In this document: positions 25,642 to 42,148 of the stretch, in pieces
How positions within the stretch are numbered: position 1 is the stretch's first letter
Layout of the letters: every line of letters starts with the position of its first letter
Assembly: GCF_031760065.1 (NCBI RefSeq)
Contig: NZ_CP134500.1
Location: forward strand, 2,170,001-2,234,000
DNA length: 64,000 nucleotides
Direction of reading: 5' to 3'
Origin: Streptomyces durocortorensis
Lineage (GTDB): Bacteria; Actinomycetota; Actinomycetes; Streptomycetales; Streptomycetaceae
Translations under genes and position numbers: made by a program
The notes under the pieces: model-generated
Seen by the model: only the letters and a program-made list of their open reading frames with translations
Databases searched by the model: none
Told to the model about the DNA's origin: nothing

Positions 25642-26591
25642 CGGACTGTCTCCTTCCGGCTCGCCGAGTGGGTCCTGTCCTCGGCCCGGTAGGCCCGGTA
25701 CTCCACCGAGGACTGCGACAGCGTCGTGTAGACCTCCTCCAGCGAGGAGTGTGCGGGCGTGAGTTCGTGGACGGCGATCCCGTGGTCGCGGGCCAGGTCG
25801 CCGATGGTCGCGGCATCGGGCCCGTCGACCCGCCAGCCGCCCCGGGCGTCGAGCCGGACGCCCGCTCCAGCCGCTGCCAGCAGGGCCCGGAGCTTCTCCG
25901 GTTCGGGGGACCGTACGAGCGTGTGGGCGCGGGAGTTGGTCTCGATGAAATCGCGCATCGTGGTGTCCGCGAGGAGCCGGCCCTGTCCGATCACGATGAG
26001 GTGGTCGGCCGTGAGCTCCATCTCGCTCATGAGGTGGCTGGAGAGGAAGACCGTGCGGCCCTCCGCCGCCAGCGACTTCATCAGCTCCCGGACCAGGCGG
26101 ATGCCCTCGGTGTCGAGGCCGTTGACCGGTTCGTCGAGGATCAGCACCTCCGGGTCGCCGATCAGCGCGGCCGCGATGCCGAGCCGCTGGCCCATGCCGA
26201 GCGAGAAGCCCTTGGTGCGTTTGCGGGCCGTCGCGACCGGCAGGCCGACCAGGTCGAGCACCTCCTCGACGCGGCGGCGCGGGATGCCGTTGCTCGCCGC
26301 GAGTCCGGCCAGGTGGTGGTAGGCGGAGCGGCCGCCGTGGACGCCCTTGGCGTCGAGCAGCGAGCCGACGGCGCGCAGCGGTCGGGGAAGGTCCCCGTAC
26401 GCCTTCCCGTCCACGGTGACGCGTCCCGCGCTCGCGGAGTCGAGGCCGAGGATCAGGCGCATGGTGGTCGACTTCCCGGCGCCGTTCGGACCGAGGAAGC
26501 CGGTCACCCGGCCGGGGCGGACGGTGAACGACAGCCGGTCGACGGCGGTCCGGTCGCCATAGCGTTTGGTGAGTTCCGTTGCTTCGATCAT
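25638..26591 (-). CDS. ABC transporter ATP-binding protein (drug-export type)
   Basis: 317 residues. Walker A is GPNGAGKST, the signature is the variant FSLGMGQRL, Walker B is VLILDEPVNGLD, and SSHLMSEME contains the switch His. The C-terminal third is the accessory domain usual for DrrA/BcrA-like ATPases. It is first in the two-gene exporter operon, ahead of its coupled permease. The two-component genes lie directly upstream in the same direction, so they are likely to control it. Confidence 0.9.
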   Translation of the reverse strand: MIEATELTKRYGDRTAVDRLSFTVRPGRVTGFLGPNGAGKSTTMRLILGLDSASAGRVTVDGKAYGDLPRPLRAVGSLLDAKGVHGGRSAYHHLAGLAASNGIPRRRVEEVLDLVGLPVATARKRTKGFSLGMGQRLGIAAALIGDPEVLILDEPVNGLDTEGIRLVRELMKSLAAEGRTVFLSSHLMSEMELTADHLIVIGQGRLLADTTMRDFIETNSRAHTLVRSPEPEKLRALLAAAGAGVRLDARGGWRVDGPDAATIGDLARDHGIAVHELTPAHSSLEEVYTTLSQSSVEYRAYRAEDRTHSASRKETVR

Positions 26592-26668
26592 GCCGCCGAC
26601 GCTACGAGCGGGGGGCCGGGGGCGAATCCTCCGGCGGGAGCCGCCTCCTACTCCCGCCGGAGTACGGT

Positions 26669-36614: not shown

Positions 36615-38324
36615 TCAGTCGATCTCGCCCTCGGTCGGTTCCGGTCCCTTGTCCGTGCCCGGTCCGCCCTTGAGCCGGTTCGCCTGGCCGATGGCCGTGG
36701 CCAGCTTCCGTACGGAGCTGTCCTCGGTCGCCTCCGCCAGTTGGGCCGCCCGGGACGCGAGTGCGCCGAGCCCGGGCGCCCCGGGGAGGTCGCCGTTGCG
36801 CAGGTTGTCCGCGAAGAAGGCAGCCACGGCTGCCACTTGGAGCCGGTCGGTGTCGCCGCCCCACAGGGGGCCGCCGATCGCGTCGGTCCGTACGGTGCCG
36901 GTCTTCTCGTGGGCCTTGCGGGTCTTGGGGTCGAGCCAGCGCACGGTGGCCCGGGCGACCGTGCCGGACGTGCCCGCGCGCAGGCGTACGGCGTACAGCG
37001 CGGTCACCGTGTGGCCGGGGCCGACCTCGCCGCCGTCGACGCTGTCGTTCCGGAAGTCCTCGTCGGCGACCTTGCGGTTCTCGTAGCCGATCAGCCGGAA
37101 CTGCCGCACCGTCTTCGGGTCGAACGCCACCTGGGCCTTGGCGTCGCGCGCCCGGATTTCGAGGTGGGCGGGCAGCTGGTCGACGAAGACCTTGCGGGCC
37201 TGCTCGTCGTCACCGACGTACGTGGTGTTCCCGTCGCCCTTGTTGGTGAGCTGCTCCATGAACGCGTCGCCGTAGTCGCTGCCGACCCCGACGCCGAAGA
37301 GGGTGATGCCGTACTCGCGGCGGGCCGAGTCGATCTTCTCCAGGATGTTCTCGGCCTTGGTGTCGCCGGTGTTGGCCAGCGCGTCGGACAGCAGCACGAC
37401 TCGGTTGGTGGCGCCCTCGCGGTGGCCCTCGACGGACTCCTCGTAGCCGAGGGTGATGCCCGCTTCGGCGTTGGTGGACTGTGCCGGCCTCAGCTCCGCC
37501 ACCGCGCCCTTGATCCGGTTCCGGTTGTCCTTGATACGAGTCATCGGGAGCCGGGTCTCGGCCTCATTGCTGAAGGTGACCAGGGAGATGGAATCGTCGT
37601 CGCGCAGCTCGTCGGTGAGGACCGTGAGGGACTTCCTGACCAGGTCGAGGCGGCCGACCTCGGCCATGGAGCCCGAGATGTCGACGACGAACGTCAGCGC
37701 TGCGGGCGGCCGTTCACTGGCCGGTGGGGCGGTCCTCGTGGCCAGCCCGACTCGAAGCAGCGACCAGTCGGAGGCTCCGGTTCCGCCACCCCCGCCTCCT
37801 CCCCCGCCCTTCAGGGTGTCGATGCGCGCCCCGTCGACGGTCACCGAGAAGCCGTTGCCCGCGGGCCGTTCGTACCCCTGGCGGAAGCTGTTGACGAACT
37901 CCTCGGGCCGTACGTCCTGGGGTGCGGGCAGCTTGCCGTCGCCGAGGGTGCGGCGCGCGTAGCCATAGCTCGCGGTGTCCACGTCCAGGGCGAAGGTGGA
38001 GAGATAGTCGGGCTCGGCCGGGTCCGGCGCCCGCTCCCCCTCGCTCTCCCGGACCCCCTGTGCGGGCGCGGCCGCATCGGGCGCGGGCTGTCCGCCGGTC
38101 GCCCCCGGCCCCTTGCGGGCGGCGGAGTTGCGGTCGGCGGTGGCCCCGCTGTCTCCGGTGCCGCCGCAGGCCGTGAGCAGCACGCCGCCCGCCAGCAGGA
38201 GCGCGAGGACTCCGGTCCGCCCGACCGCCGTCCGGCCCCCTGTCCCCGCCCCCGCGCCTGCCCCTGCCCTTGCCCGCTTCCCGCGCCGCTGACTGTGCGG
38301 TCCGAGCCGATTGGCCTGGTTCAT
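36615..38324 (-). CDS. VWA-domain lipoprotein (YfbK-like)
   Basis: 569 residues. The basic N-terminus, a hydrophobic helix and the lipobox LLTAC (lipidated Cys53) mark a lipoprotein. After a disordered Pro/Ala stretch comes the YfbK-type N-terminal part (FALDVDTASYGYARRTL, RPEEFVNSF). A poly-Gly run follows (about 173-181), then a von Willebrand A domain with the MIDAS motif DISGSM (215-220), and a C-terminal conserved domain of the same family. Probably binds partner proteins at the membrane surface in a metal-dependent way. ATG 38324. Function unknown. Confidence 0.85.
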   Translation of the reverse strand: MNQANRLGPHSQRRGKRARAGAGAGAGTGGRTAVGRTGVLALLLAGGVLLTACGGTGDSGATADRNSAARKGPGATGGQPAPDAAAPAQGVRESEGERAPDPAEPDYLSTFALDVDTASYGYARRTLGDGKLPAPQDVRPEEFVNSFRQGYERPAGNGFSVTVDGARIDTLKGGGGGGGGGTGASDWSLLRVGLATRTAPPASERPPAALTFVVDISGSMAEVGRLDLVRKSLTVLTDELRDDDSISLVTFSNEAETRLPMTRIKDNRNRIKGAVAELRPAQSTNAEAGITLGYEESVEGHREGATNRVVLLSDALANTGDTKAENILEKIDSARREYGITLFGVGVGSDYGDAFMEQLTNKGDGNTTYVGDDEQARKVFVDQLPAHLEIRARDAKAQVAFDPKTVRQFRLIGYENRKVADEDFRNDSVDGGEVGPGHTVTALYAVRLRAGTSGTVARATVRWLDPKTRKAHEKTGTVRTDAIGGPLWGGDTDRLQVAAVAAFFADNLRNGDLPGAPGLGALASRAAQLAEATEDSSVRKLATAIGQANRLKGGPGTDKGPEPTEGEID

Positions 38325-38462: not shown

Positions 38463-39365
38463 TCAGGACACGATGTCCTTACGACTGAACCCGCGGAAGG
38501 CCAACGCGAACAGGATCAGGGCATAGGTCACTGATACGGCCGTGCCCTTGATCATGCCGCCCCACTCCAGTTGCGGCTGAAGCGCGTCGGCCCAGGCGAA
38601 CTGCCAGTGCGCGGGCAGGAAGTCGCGCCAGGAGCCGAGTGCGGTGATCGCGTCGAGCACATTGCCGAGAATCGTGAGGAAGACCGCACCGCCGACCGCG
38701 CCGAGCGGCGCGTCCGTCTTCGTGGACAGCCAGAACGCCAGCCCGGCGGTGACCAGTTGGGAGACGAAGATGAACGCCACGACGAGCGCGAGGCGCGGCA
38801 CGGTGTCCCCGGCCGCCAGCGCTCCCCCGGTGGGCAGTTTCAGCGGGCCCCACCCGTAGGCCGCCGTGCCCGCCGCCAACGCGACGACCGGCAGCAGCAC
38901 CATCGCGGCCAGGCTGAAGCCCAGCGCCACGACCAACTTGCTCCACAGCAGCCGCACACGCGGCACCGGCGCGGCGAGCAGATAGCGCAGGGAGGACCAG
39001 CTCGCCTCGGAGGCGACGGTGTCCCCGCAGAACAGGGCCACCGGGATCACCAGCAGGAACCCGGCCGAGACGAACAGCGAGGTCGCGGCGAAGTTCGCGG
39101 CCGACTCGGTCGCCACGTCCATCAGGTTGATCCGGTTGCCGCCCCGGCCGCCGCCCTCGCCGTCCGGTGTGCCGCCGATCGCGAAGGCGATGATCAGGAT
39201 GAACGGGAGGGCGGCGAGCACCCCGCCCATGAGCAGGGTGCGGCGCCTGCGCAACTGCCGCATGGCCTCGACGCGGAGGGGGAGGGTGCGCCCGGCGCGG
39301 TAGCCCGCGGCCTCCGGGTGCTCGGTCTCCACCCGGGACTCGGGAGGCTGGACGGGGGCGCTCAT
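38463..39365 (-). CDS. ABC-2 type transporter permease
   Basis: 300 residues with six hydrophobic segments after a basic cytoplasmic N-terminus (LRVEAMRQLRRRRTLL). The segment SWSSLRYLLAAPVPRVRLLWSKL between helices is the usual coupling region for ABC-2 permeases. ATG 39365 overlaps the stop of the hydrolase-ATPase gene by ATGA. It must be the membrane channel partner of the ATPase domain of that fusion. Confidence 0.88.
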   Translation of the reverse strand: MSAPVQPPESRVETEHPEAAGYRAGRTLPLRVEAMRQLRRRRTLLMGGVLAALPFILIIAFAIGGTPDGEGGGRGGNRINLMDVATESAANFAATSLFVSAGFLLVIPVALFCGDTVASEASWSSLRYLLAAPVPRVRLLWSKLVVALGFSLAAMVLLPVVALAAGTAAYGWGPLKLPTGGALAAGDTVPRLALVVAFIFVSQLVTAGLAFWLSTKTDAPLGAVGGAVFLTILGNVLDAITALGSWRDFLPAHWQFAWADALQPQLEWGGMIKGTAVSVTYALILFALAFRGFSRKDIVS

Positions 39366-42016
39366 GCTGCTCCTCCGGAGATCAGGGTGAGGAAGGCGTC
39401 CTCCAGGCGGCGGTGGGGTCCGACGCCGGTGACCGGGACGTCGAGCCGGACGAGGTCGGCGACGAGCCGTGAGGTGGTGGCCCCGTCGAGGCGGACGAGG
39501 AGCCCGCGCCCGTCGTCGGTGCGGACGGCGGAGCCGATGCCGGGCAGGGCGGCGACCTTCTCCGCCAGCGGCTCGGACACCTCCTCCGCCACGCTCACCA
39601 GGAGCATGTCGCCGGAGCCGGTGATCTCGGCGACCGGACCCGCCTGGACGAGCCGGCCCCGGTCCATGACGACCAGGTGGGTGCAGGACTGCTCGACCTC
39701 GGAGAGCAGGTGGCTGGAGACGATGACGGTCCGGCCCCCGGCCGCGTAACGGATCATCACGTCCCGCATCTCACGGATCTGCGGCGGGTCGAGCCCGTTG
39801 GTCGGCTCGTCGAGGATGAGCAGGTCCGGCATGCCGAGCATGGCCTGCGCGATGGCGAGCCGCTGCCGCATGCCCTGGGAGTACGTCCGTACGGCACGGG
39901 CCAGCGCGTCTCCGAGTCCGGCGATCTCCAGGGCCTCGTCGATGCGGGCGTCCTCGGCGGGGCGGCCGGTGGCCTGCCAGTACAGGTCGAGGTTGGCGCG
40001 CCCGGAGAGGTGCGGCAGGAACCCGGCCCCCTCCACGAACGCCCCGACCCGGGAGAGCACGGGTGCGCCGGGCCGGATGGCCTGCCCGAAGACGCGGATC
40101 TCGCCCTCGTCGGGGCTGATGAGCCCCATGAGCATGCGCAGGGTCGTCGTCTTGCCCGCGCCGTTCGGCCCCAGCAGCCCGAGCACCTGCCCCTTCTCGA
40201 CGCGGAAGGACAGCTCGCGCACGGCGTACCGGTCGACGGACTTCGCGTACTTCTTCGAGAGCCCGGTGATCTGGAGTGGTACGTCGGCGAGTTCGGGGTC
40301 CGGCGCGGGCGTCGCGGTACGGCGGCGGGCCGTGAGCAGCAGACCGGCCGCGATGACGAGGGCGGCGGTGGGAAGGCCCCAGGTCCACCACGGGAGCGCG
40401 GCGGCCGCGGTCCGCACGGCGGGCGCGGTGGGGATGGTCAGCGGTCCGTCGGCGGTCACGGTGTACGTGGCGGGCTCGGCCGGGGACGCGTAGCCGAGGT
40501 CGGTCGCGGAGAACACCAGCCGCAGCCGGTGTCCGGCGTCGAACTCGTGGTCCACGGCGGGCAGGGCCAGTTCGAGGGGCTTGCCCTGCTGGTCGGGGGT
40601 GATCCGGTAGGGGGCGACGAGCTGGTGGGGCAGCACCTGCTGCCTGCCGTCCGGCGACACGTCGTACACCTTGCCGAAGAGCACCGCGTCCCGGCCGCCG
40701 CTCGCCGTCACGTTGACCTTGACGGTCGGTGTGCCGGTGACGCGTACGGAGGTGTCGAGCGGGGCGGACTCGAAGCGGCCGAACTGCCCGGGGAAGTCGA
40801 GCGAGAGCCCGACGCCGAGGGAGGAGAGCTGGGCGAGTCCGCCGCCGATGCCCGGCACGGCGGAGATGGCGGGCGGCGAGGAGCCGGCCGGGTTGCGGAA
40901 GGTCTTCGTCCCACCGCCGAGCGCGAGGTCGCGGCCGCCGCTGCGCAGCCCGGGGTAGGTGTCGCTGCTCGCCCCGCGCAACAGGGCGGCGCCGTCGGTG
41001 GAGTCGAGGCCTCCGGTCCGGGTGACCCGGAAGACGGGCCCGGTGTCGGTGCCGCTCTCCTCCTTCAGGTGCCGGTCGAACCAGGCCCCGACGCGCCCCT
41101 CGACGCGGCTCGTCTCGCTGTCGCCGCCGTCGTGCCCGCCGGAGATCCAGTCGACGGAGACGGGCGCGCCGTTGGCGCTGATGGCCTTCTGCATGGCGTC
41201 GGCGTGGCCGAGCGGGAAGAGGGAGTCGGACTGCCCCTGGAGGAGGAGCGAGGGAACCTTGATGCGGTCGGCGACGGCGGACGGCGACCGCTCTGCGAGC
41301 AGCTTCACCGCCTCGGCGTCGGGCTTGCCGCTGACGGCGACCCGCTCGTACATCTCGCAGAGCCGCTGCTCGAACTTCTCGCAGCCGCCGCCGGTGGTGA
41401 TGAAGATCCCGGCCCAGAGCTTCTTGAAAACCCCTTCGGGGAAGAGGGCGTCGGCGAGGTTCCAGTAGGTGATCACCGGCGCGATGGCGTCGACGCGCTC
41501 GTCGTGCCCGGCGGCCAGCAGGGACACGGCCCCGCCGTAGGAGGCTCCGGTGAGGCCGACCCGCGGGTCGCCCTTCCCGTCGAGCTCGACCTCGGGCCGC
41601 CCGGCCAGCCAGTCGATGAGCCGGGAGACATCCCTGACCTCGTTCTCCGGGTCGTTGAGGGAGATCTTCCCGCCGGACTTCCCGAAGCCGCGCGCGGACC
41701 AGGTCAGCACCGCGTACCCGTCGGCGGCCAGCTTCTCGGCCTGGGCCCGTACGTCGTCCTTGCTGCCGCCGAAGCCGTGCCCGATGAGTACGGCGGGCCG
41801 CTTGCCGGACCCTTCTCCGTAGAAGTACGAGGTGTCGACCGGCACCCCGTCCATCCGCAGCGTCCGGTCCTCGCGCTGCACGGCGGGCGAGCCGTCGTCG
41901 GCGACGGCGCTGAAGGTGCCACCGCCCACGAGCACGGCGAGCGCGGCGCCGGCCGCGGCCCACCGGCCGGGGGTGCGGGGCAGCAGGCGCCGCCATCGAG
42001 CAGTAGGGGTCTCCAT
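39362..42016 (-). CDS. Alpha/beta-hydrolase (X-Pro peptidase S15-like) fused to ABC ATPase
   Basis: 884 residues in one frame. Residues 18-38 are an N-terminal membrane or signal-anchor helix. Residues 45-330 are an S15/CocE-type alpha/beta hydrolase with Ser159 (GASYGG), Asp264 (GQSDSLFPL) and His295 (SGGHDGGDS), followed by a beta-sandwich to about 530. A second membrane helix follows (about 540-562, WWTWGLPTAALVIAAGLLL), then RRR. The C-terminal half is a complete ABC ATPase: Walker A GPNGAGKTT near 615, signature YSQGMRQRL, Walker B LLILDEPTNGLD near 735. Topology implies an external hydrolase tethered to an internal ATPase. Coupled to its permease. ATG 42016. Confidence 0.88.
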   Translation of the reverse strand: METPTARWRRLLPRTPGRWAAAGAALAVLVGGGTFSAVADDGSPAVQREDRTLRMDGVPVDTSYFYGEGSGKRPAVLIGHGFGGSKDDVRAQAEKLAADGYAVLTWSARGFGKSGGKISLNDPENEVRDVSRLIDWLAGRPEVELDGKGDPRVGLTGASYGGAVSLLAAGHDERVDAIAPVITYWNLADALFPEGVFKKLWAGIFITTGGGCEKFEQRLCEMYERVAVSGKPDAEAVKLLAERSPSAVADRIKVPSLLLQGQSDSLFPLGHADAMQKAISANGAPVSVDWISGGHDGGDSETSRVEGRVGAWFDRHLKEESGTDTGPVFRVTRTGGLDSTDGAALLRGASSDTYPGLRSGGRDLALGGGTKTFRNPAGSSPPAISAVPGIGGGLAQLSSLGVGLSLDFPGQFGRFESAPLDTSVRVTGTPTVKVNVTASGGRDAVLFGKVYDVSPDGRQQVLPHQLVAPYRITPDQQGKPLELALPAVDHEFDAGHRLRLVFSATDLGYASPAEPATYTVTADGPLTIPTAPAVRTAAAALPWWTWGLPTAALVIAAGLLLTARRRTATPAPDPELADVPLQITGLSKKYAKSVDRYAVRELSFRVEKGQVLGLLGPNGAGKTTTLRMLMGLISPDEGEIRVFGQAIRPGAPVLSRVGAFVEGAGFLPHLSGRANLDLYWQATGRPAEDARIDEALEIAGLGDALARAVRTYSQGMRQRLAIAQAMLGMPDLLILDEPTNGLDPPQIREMRDVMIRYAAGGRTVIVSSHLLSEVEQSCTHLVVMDRGRLVQAGPVAEITGSGDMLLVSVAEEVSEPLAEKVAALPGIGSAVRTDDGRGLLVRLDGATTSRLVADLVRLDVPVTGVGPHRRLEDAFLTLISGGAA

Positions 42017-42148
42017 CCCTCGACCCTAGTCGGCGGACGCAACCCGCTTGCCTGCCGCCAGGGTGAGGTGTGCGGCCTCCCTGAGAGGTACGGTGCACCT
42101 CCTCCGTACTCCGGATGCGGTACGGAATTTCCGCCTCGGGAGGCCATT

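Follow-up and report, generated by a model that had tools for sequence, protein, structure and literature searches.

A CocE/NonD-type hydrolase fused to an ABC ATPase and encoded with an ABC-2 permease in Streptomyces durocortorensis and other Actinomycetota

Why should a serine hydrolase and the ATPase of an ATP-binding cassette (ABC) transporter share one polypeptide chain? This question is raised by two genes on the minus strand of a 64,000-nucleotide stretch of Streptomyces durocortorensis DNA (contig NZ_CP134500.1, positions 2,170,001 to 2,234,000; hereafter the window, whose own numbering is used for all features of the pair). The first gene (39362..42016) runs from an ATG to a TGA over 884 codons and encodes both enzymes, and its stop codon shares bases, in an ATGA overlap, with the start codon of the second (38463..39365), which specifies a 300-residue ABC-2 permease of the type V fold. 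A preliminary description had noted this single frame and overlap, the catalytic triad Ser159, Asp264 and His295 and a complete ABC ATPase after a second membrane helix, and our analysis bears out all of these. Our best reading of the pair, to which we give an even chance, is that the ABC ATPase and permease extract or export an amphiphile, which the tethered hydrolase would cleave at the exit.

The fusion recurs well beyond this genome. The same domain order was sought in actinobacterial genomes and 113 fused copies, the window's included, were gathered from the fetched loci; 8 were duplicates, leaving 105 distinct homologues from Actinomycetota, to which the counts out of 105 refer. In every one of them a single frame holds both halves and the second helix, and the high-GC pattern at the third codon position is unbroken over the hydrolase–ATPase junction, with no change of frame. 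A sequencing or gene-calling artefact (a frameshift or missed stop), which the preliminary description had itself considered, has nothing in its favour and can practically be discounted. In the same vein, none of the loci examined showed the hydrolase and the ATPase as two separate, adjacent genes. Four genome samples, evenly drawn and partly overlapping, were compared, with fused counts read off printed frames. The Streptomyces sample yielded fused genes in 56 out of 61 genomes, with a further copy cut off in G008; the family sample in 48 out of 61, with one more split over two contigs (G289); the class sample in 44 out of 197; and the phylum sample in 17 out of 246, nine of these genomes lying outside the class. 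Matching genomes with a hydrolase or an ATPase only were left out of these counts (3 of 47 in the class, 5 of 22 in the phylum and 2 of 59 in Streptomyces, G031 and G058). Among the named hosts are Kitasatospora, Nonomuraea, Streptosporangium, Asanoa, Actinoplanes, Geodermatophilus, Rhodococcus and Nocardioides, and two genomes of only 1.3-1.4 Mb carry the fusion as well (G084, G120). Among the 80 loci listed by a species-wide contig scan 19 are fused, and the titles of all 19 name actinobacterial genera or an 'Actinomycetota bacterium'. No fusion was seen in genome samples from the phylum of a record titled Chloroflexi (201) or from that of a Paenibacillus (249), where about 3-4 candidates per genome were scored and the matches (four and one, respectively) were all ATPases in frames of 298-334 residues. 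The window's genome (7.3 Mb, single contig) has one full-length copy.

Conservation across the 105 homologues extends to both active sites. The hydrolase residues Ser159 (codon 41540..41542, in the motif G-A-S-Y-G-G), Asp264 (41225..41227) and His295 (41132..41134) are identical in all of them, as are Lys622, Ser713, Asp736, Glu737 and His769 of the ATPase; judging from these sequences, both halves are under selection. Between 42 representatives, divergence has been faster in the hydrolase (mean distance 0.54) than in the ATPase core (0.34), and the two sets of distances correlate (Spearman 0.76, the pairs being non-independent). A quick tree unites the fused hydrolases to the exclusion of four stand-alone relatives, with a support of 99 in the Shimodaira–Hasegawa-like approximate likelihood-ratio test. 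The ATPase tree places the fused L173, without strong support, beside four stand-alone ATPases, so that the fused rows require two label changes; the well-supported branches permit one origin. A single fusion early in Actinomycetota would be the simplest account of these trees.

On which side of the membrane do the two enzymes lie? An AlphaFold2 (AF2) single-chain model, built from a 46-sequence alignment (mean predicted local distance difference test score, pLDDT, 83.5; predicted template modelling score, pTM, 0.61), contains a well-modelled domain at residues 46-530 (40427..41881), an ATPase domain at about 577-881 that is less certain around 660-730 (block pLDDT of about 54-64), and two isolated helices at 18-37 (41906..41965) and 543-562 (40331..40390), the former at low confidence; the relative placement of hydrolase and ATPase domains in it is not trustworthy because of the pTM. 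The best 19-residue hydrophobic windows of the protein begin at residues 21 and 545. Helix 2 is hydrophobic in 105/105 members (best 19-residue mean of at least 1.59) and is followed by an arginine-rich stop-transfer segment: the mean net charge per 12 residues is +2.7 after the helix versus +0.08 before it (n = 105), and 98% and 90% of the 42 representatives retain Arg564 and Arg566, respectively. The hydropathy measure is not clean, since 7 and 4 members exceed 1.6 inside the hydrolase and ATPase parts, respectively. The N-terminal segment is weaker, 12 of the 105 members falling below 1.6, and it may be a cleavable signal peptide in some members rather than a signal anchor. In signal sequences judged by eye and with a simple pattern, one member (L056) starts with a lipobox-like LGAC, and the three stand-alone relatives of the outside domain that were inspected for this (L156, L157, L182) have signal-peptide-like starts. 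The outside domain contains exactly two cysteines in 102 members, three in one and none in two. Cys212 and Cys220 (41357..41383) are both present in 103/105 and are replaced together in the remaining two (L026 and L038). Such paired loss would be expected of a disulfide and therefore of an oxidising outside space. Taken together, the charge step, the lipobox of L056, the secreted-looking stand-alone relatives and the paired cysteine loss make the location of the hydrolase outside the membrane a well-supported prediction, and the topology evidence favours the earlier proposal of one polypeptide with its hydrolase outside and its ATPase inside. The further statement that the hydrolase sits between two membrane helices stands in that both hydrophobic segments are present, the first being the low-confidence one that may be cleaved. 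Beside the conserved cysteines, the loop at residues 201-212 varies from 10 to 117 residues across the family, its longer versions being rich in Pro, Ala and Gly in aligned examples.

What kind of hydrolase is held there? Pfam assigns Peptidase_S15 to residues 56-202 and PepX_C (PF08530) to 414-520, and the protein had been called S15-like. This name is true of the fold only, because the protein passes the curated cut-off of the NCBIfam model TIGR00976 (CocE/NonD; residues 1-561, 99.3 versus 66.3 bits) and misses that of the Xaa-Pro dipeptidyl-peptidases (NF003780; 45.1 versus 642 bits). By sequence score, the hydrolase thus belongs with the CocE/NonD subfamily and not with the Xaa-Pro peptidases. 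Its model has a lipase as top structural match, with the lipase PaL (8yzn) and CocE as neighbours; the fold comparisons, for the permease too, proceeded by re-alignment, and a structure that they do not name is not thereby ruled out. Like these enzymes (TIGR00976; PaL 8yzn, cocaine esterase), it combines an alpha/beta-hydrolase with a PepX_C jelly roll and a Ser-Asp-His triad; unlike the compared CocE/NonD structures, which are single enzymes, the domain is joined via a membrane helix to an ABC ATPase. Tyr44 contributes to the oxyanion hole of CocE, and most members of the fused family have (A/G)HGFGG in what is probably the corresponding region. The ATPase core (residues 578-800; 39617..40285) carries ABC_tran at 600-740 with motifs invariant in all 105 members, and its model folds like NosF and the ABCA4 domains. 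A small C-terminal domain of strands and helices in the AF2 model follows it (residues 803-884; 39365..39610). In 24/105 members no more than 46 residues lie beyond position 800 versus about 80 in most (L055 being cut by its contig), a difference that points to loss or gain of this domain. Elsewhere in the window, a second ABC ATPase (25716-26639, minus strand), inside an open frame of 605 residues, is 40% identical to the fused one.

These assignments bear on the idea that the pump exports a peptide, which the hydrolase would then trim as an Xaa-Pro peptidase or aminopeptidase. The PepX_C domain and the S15 fold agree with it, and among family models the best scores of the ATPase are indeed those of DrrA and lantibiotic protection; however, both stay far under their curated cut-offs (TIGR01188, 176.5 versus 312.45; TIGR03740, 169.6 versus 309.75), the Xaa-Pro score is as low as given above, and no conserved extra gene lies nearby among open reading frames of at least 70-80 residues, a length below which a precursor peptide might fall. 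We regard peptide maturation as very unlikely.

The fused gene does not come alone. Wherever its downstream side is complete, the permease gene follows directly (103/105 loci), the other two (L025, L055) stopping at a contig edge. The 104 closed fused genes end in ATGA (71), GTGA (21), CTGA (9) or TTGA (3). Sixteen sampled genomes of the genus and family lack the fusion, and a permease search of 15 of them (all except G050) gave ten with only a relative of 29-33% identity and five with none at E 1e-20. It is therefore well supported that fused gene and permease form one unit and are present or absent together, as the fixed coupling proposed earlier would have it. The permease, which matches ABC2_membrane_2/4 in Pfam, is modelled with the NosY/ABCG fold, NosY being closest, and has the ABC-2 fold of type V exporters. 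In the model of the fused protein, about 13 residues separate the end of the hydrolase from helix 2 and about 17 separate helix 2 from the start of the ATPase, and the stretch from residue 528 to 581 measures 49-62 residues in 101 of the 105 members. Such a short, near-constant tether implies that in most members the enzyme is held near the outer face of the permease on which the ATPase docks.

Could the fusion nevertheless be fortuitous, the ATPase gene serving as a mere membrane anchor while export and hydrolysis remain separate jobs? Relatives of each half do occur on their own. Stand-alone hydrolases are found at L003, L156, L157 and L182, the first of which (G000:C1:6479916-6481529, a 601-residue frame in the window's own genome) is 41% identical to the outside domain. 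Hydrolase-free ATPase–permease pairs are found at L155 (8901-10642), L179 (1029-2749), L180 (6472-8288) and L181 (141-1903), with ATPases 50-53% identical to the fused one; that of L183 is 47% identical. Besides, L182 (1793-3541) has a C-terminal tail of LPATGG, helix and arginines that resembles that of a wall-anchored sortase substrate; such a form could give rise to a fusion of this kind and is possibly, on its sequence, that of the hydrolase partner before fusion. The poor conservation of helix 2 also agrees with a simple tether. Against this stand the fused state of all 105 members across the sampled range of the phylum, the joint presence or absence of the permease and the near-constant tether length, so that a chance fusion appears rather unlikely.

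A more intimate link between the two activities would be mechanical: without any export, ATP binding would move permease and helix 2, thereby opening or loading the outside hydrolase in an FtsEX-like manner. The covalent path from ATPase to hydrolase is direct, and the fold of the permease is nearest to NosY, whose complex serves an outside protein. Action of an ABC engine upon a hydrolase outside the membrane is also described for FtsEX, whose literature supports this general idea, and for YbbAP-TesA of Escherichia coli (2025), reported to be a type VII ABC pair holding a periplasmic esterase (PMC12646458). However, the permease modelled here (300 residues, mainly helical) lacks a large outside domain, unlike YbbP as reported there, and helix 2 is not specially conserved; such mechanotransmission is accordingly judged unlikely. 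A related proposal, that the ATPase subunit itself spans the membrane and that its one helix links ATP hydrolysis to the loading or opening of the outside hydrolase, the family being an actinobacterial membrane-extraction class convergent with YbbAP-TesA, is a minor but real possibility.

We return to extraction or export of an amphiphile followed by cleavage at the exit. The preliminary description had already proposed a machine for export plus cleavage, a proposal that our results support in part. The scheme would work as follows. In a two-gene envelope machine, two permeases and two fused proteins would come together as an ABC complex of type V. The ATPase of every fused chain would sit on the inner face of a permease, helix 2 would take the chain through the membrane, and a CocE/NonD-type serine hydrolase would be held at the outer face, about a dozen residues or fewer from the membrane. 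Powered by ATP, the permease would lift an amphiphilic molecule from or across the membrane. Candidates for this molecule are lipids, metabolites that are acylated or carry an ester, and membrane-active compounds or toxins that intrude from elsewhere; the tethered hydrolase would cleave the lifted molecule as it exits, preventing its return. Several observations weigh against this scheme. The lipid or ester chemistry is suggested solely by likeness in family and fold, and the neighbouring genes supply no substrate clue in the loci compared (18 + 29). Among the 42 representatives, helix 2 has a conservation score of 0.44, helix 1 one of 0.42 and the hydrolase domain one of 0.58 (the permease helices score 0.51-0.73, in a separate set of 36 rows), and a helix 2 hardly better conserved than helix 1 does not support specific packing against the permease. 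Four members have longer tethers (67, 75, 87 and 108 residues), so the spacing is not strictly fixed. No hydrolase match lies beside the ATPase–permease pairs of L155, L179, L180, L181 and L183 within the 9-19 kb read, which indicates that the pump can do without a hydrolase. Finally, even in YbbAP-TesA ester hydrolysis was reportedly little stimulated by ATP on the test substrates (PMC12646458).

In the neighbour comparison (18 + 29 loci), the permease gene is the one neighbour shared beyond close relatives, members of very large superfamilies excepted. Candidates set aside, their identities read from sequence, include inositol- and urease-type genes near the window's pair, which do not recur across lineages beside the fused gene. 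The same holds for threonine-synthase-like neighbours found elsewhere in the phylum's lineages and for genes resembling acyl-CoA dehydrogenases that lie close to stand-alone relatives, both groups belonging to very large superfamilies. A lipoprotein-like gene (36615-38324, minus strand), of von Willebrand A-type by our reading, comes after the permease in the same orientation; a homologue lies near the fused gene in 6 of 18 loci, the named ones all from Streptomyces. Upstream, a TAGGGT box (42023-42028) stands six bases ahead of the fused gene's start codon, and 8 of 11 inspected upstream regions have TAGGGT near the start, which suggests leaderless transcription. A sigma-E-like promoter pattern gave no signal (2 of 52 upstream regions).

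How does the fused system relate to known ones? It resembles NosFY(D), a type V complex, in the fold of permease and ATPase; the NosFY engine serves the outside protein NosD, which is separate and not a hydrolase. With ABC-2 exporters of the BcrAB/LanFEG/DrrAB type it shares the broad ATPase group and an ABC-2 permease directly after, but it falls well short of the curated cut-offs for DrrA and lantibiotic protection, and no hydrolase is known on the ATPase chains of those exporters. Peptidase-containing (C39) exporters also join an enzyme to an ABC ATPase in one chain; their enzyme is a cytoplasmic cysteine peptidase, unlike the outside serine hydrolase found here. The closest parallel is YbbAP-TesA, likewise an ABC engine with a serine hydrolase outside the membrane, whose authors propose that hydrophobic compounds are extracted from the membrane and presented for hydrolysis (PMC12646458). 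As described there, YbbP is of type VII and has two large domains in the periplasm, and TesA, an esterase of the GDSL family, is a protein of its own, whereas here a type V-fold permease without such domains accompanies an alpha/beta-hydrolase (G-x-S-Y-G-G) of CocE/NonD type fused to the ATPase. Since neither permease type nor enzyme family is shared, the likeness is convergence at most and not membership, and by this analogy the fused system looks like an independently evolved version of a pump-plus-esterase.

To conclude, this gene pair is widespread in Streptomyces, yet no described function was found for its layout: no paper on a hydrolase–ABC ATPase fusion turned up in open-access full text, subscription papers being outside the search, in line with the preliminary description. 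The finding matters for annotation as well. The 120 homologues listed of 7,988 significant ones (884 residues, 93-95% identical) are mostly named 'alpha/beta fold hydrolase' and in a few cases ABC ATP-binding protein. If molecules removed from the membrane by the ABC pair are the substrates of the outside hydrolase, hydrolysis coupled to a pump would have evolved more than once, and in these actinobacteria the coupling of pump and hydrolase would be built into one chain.

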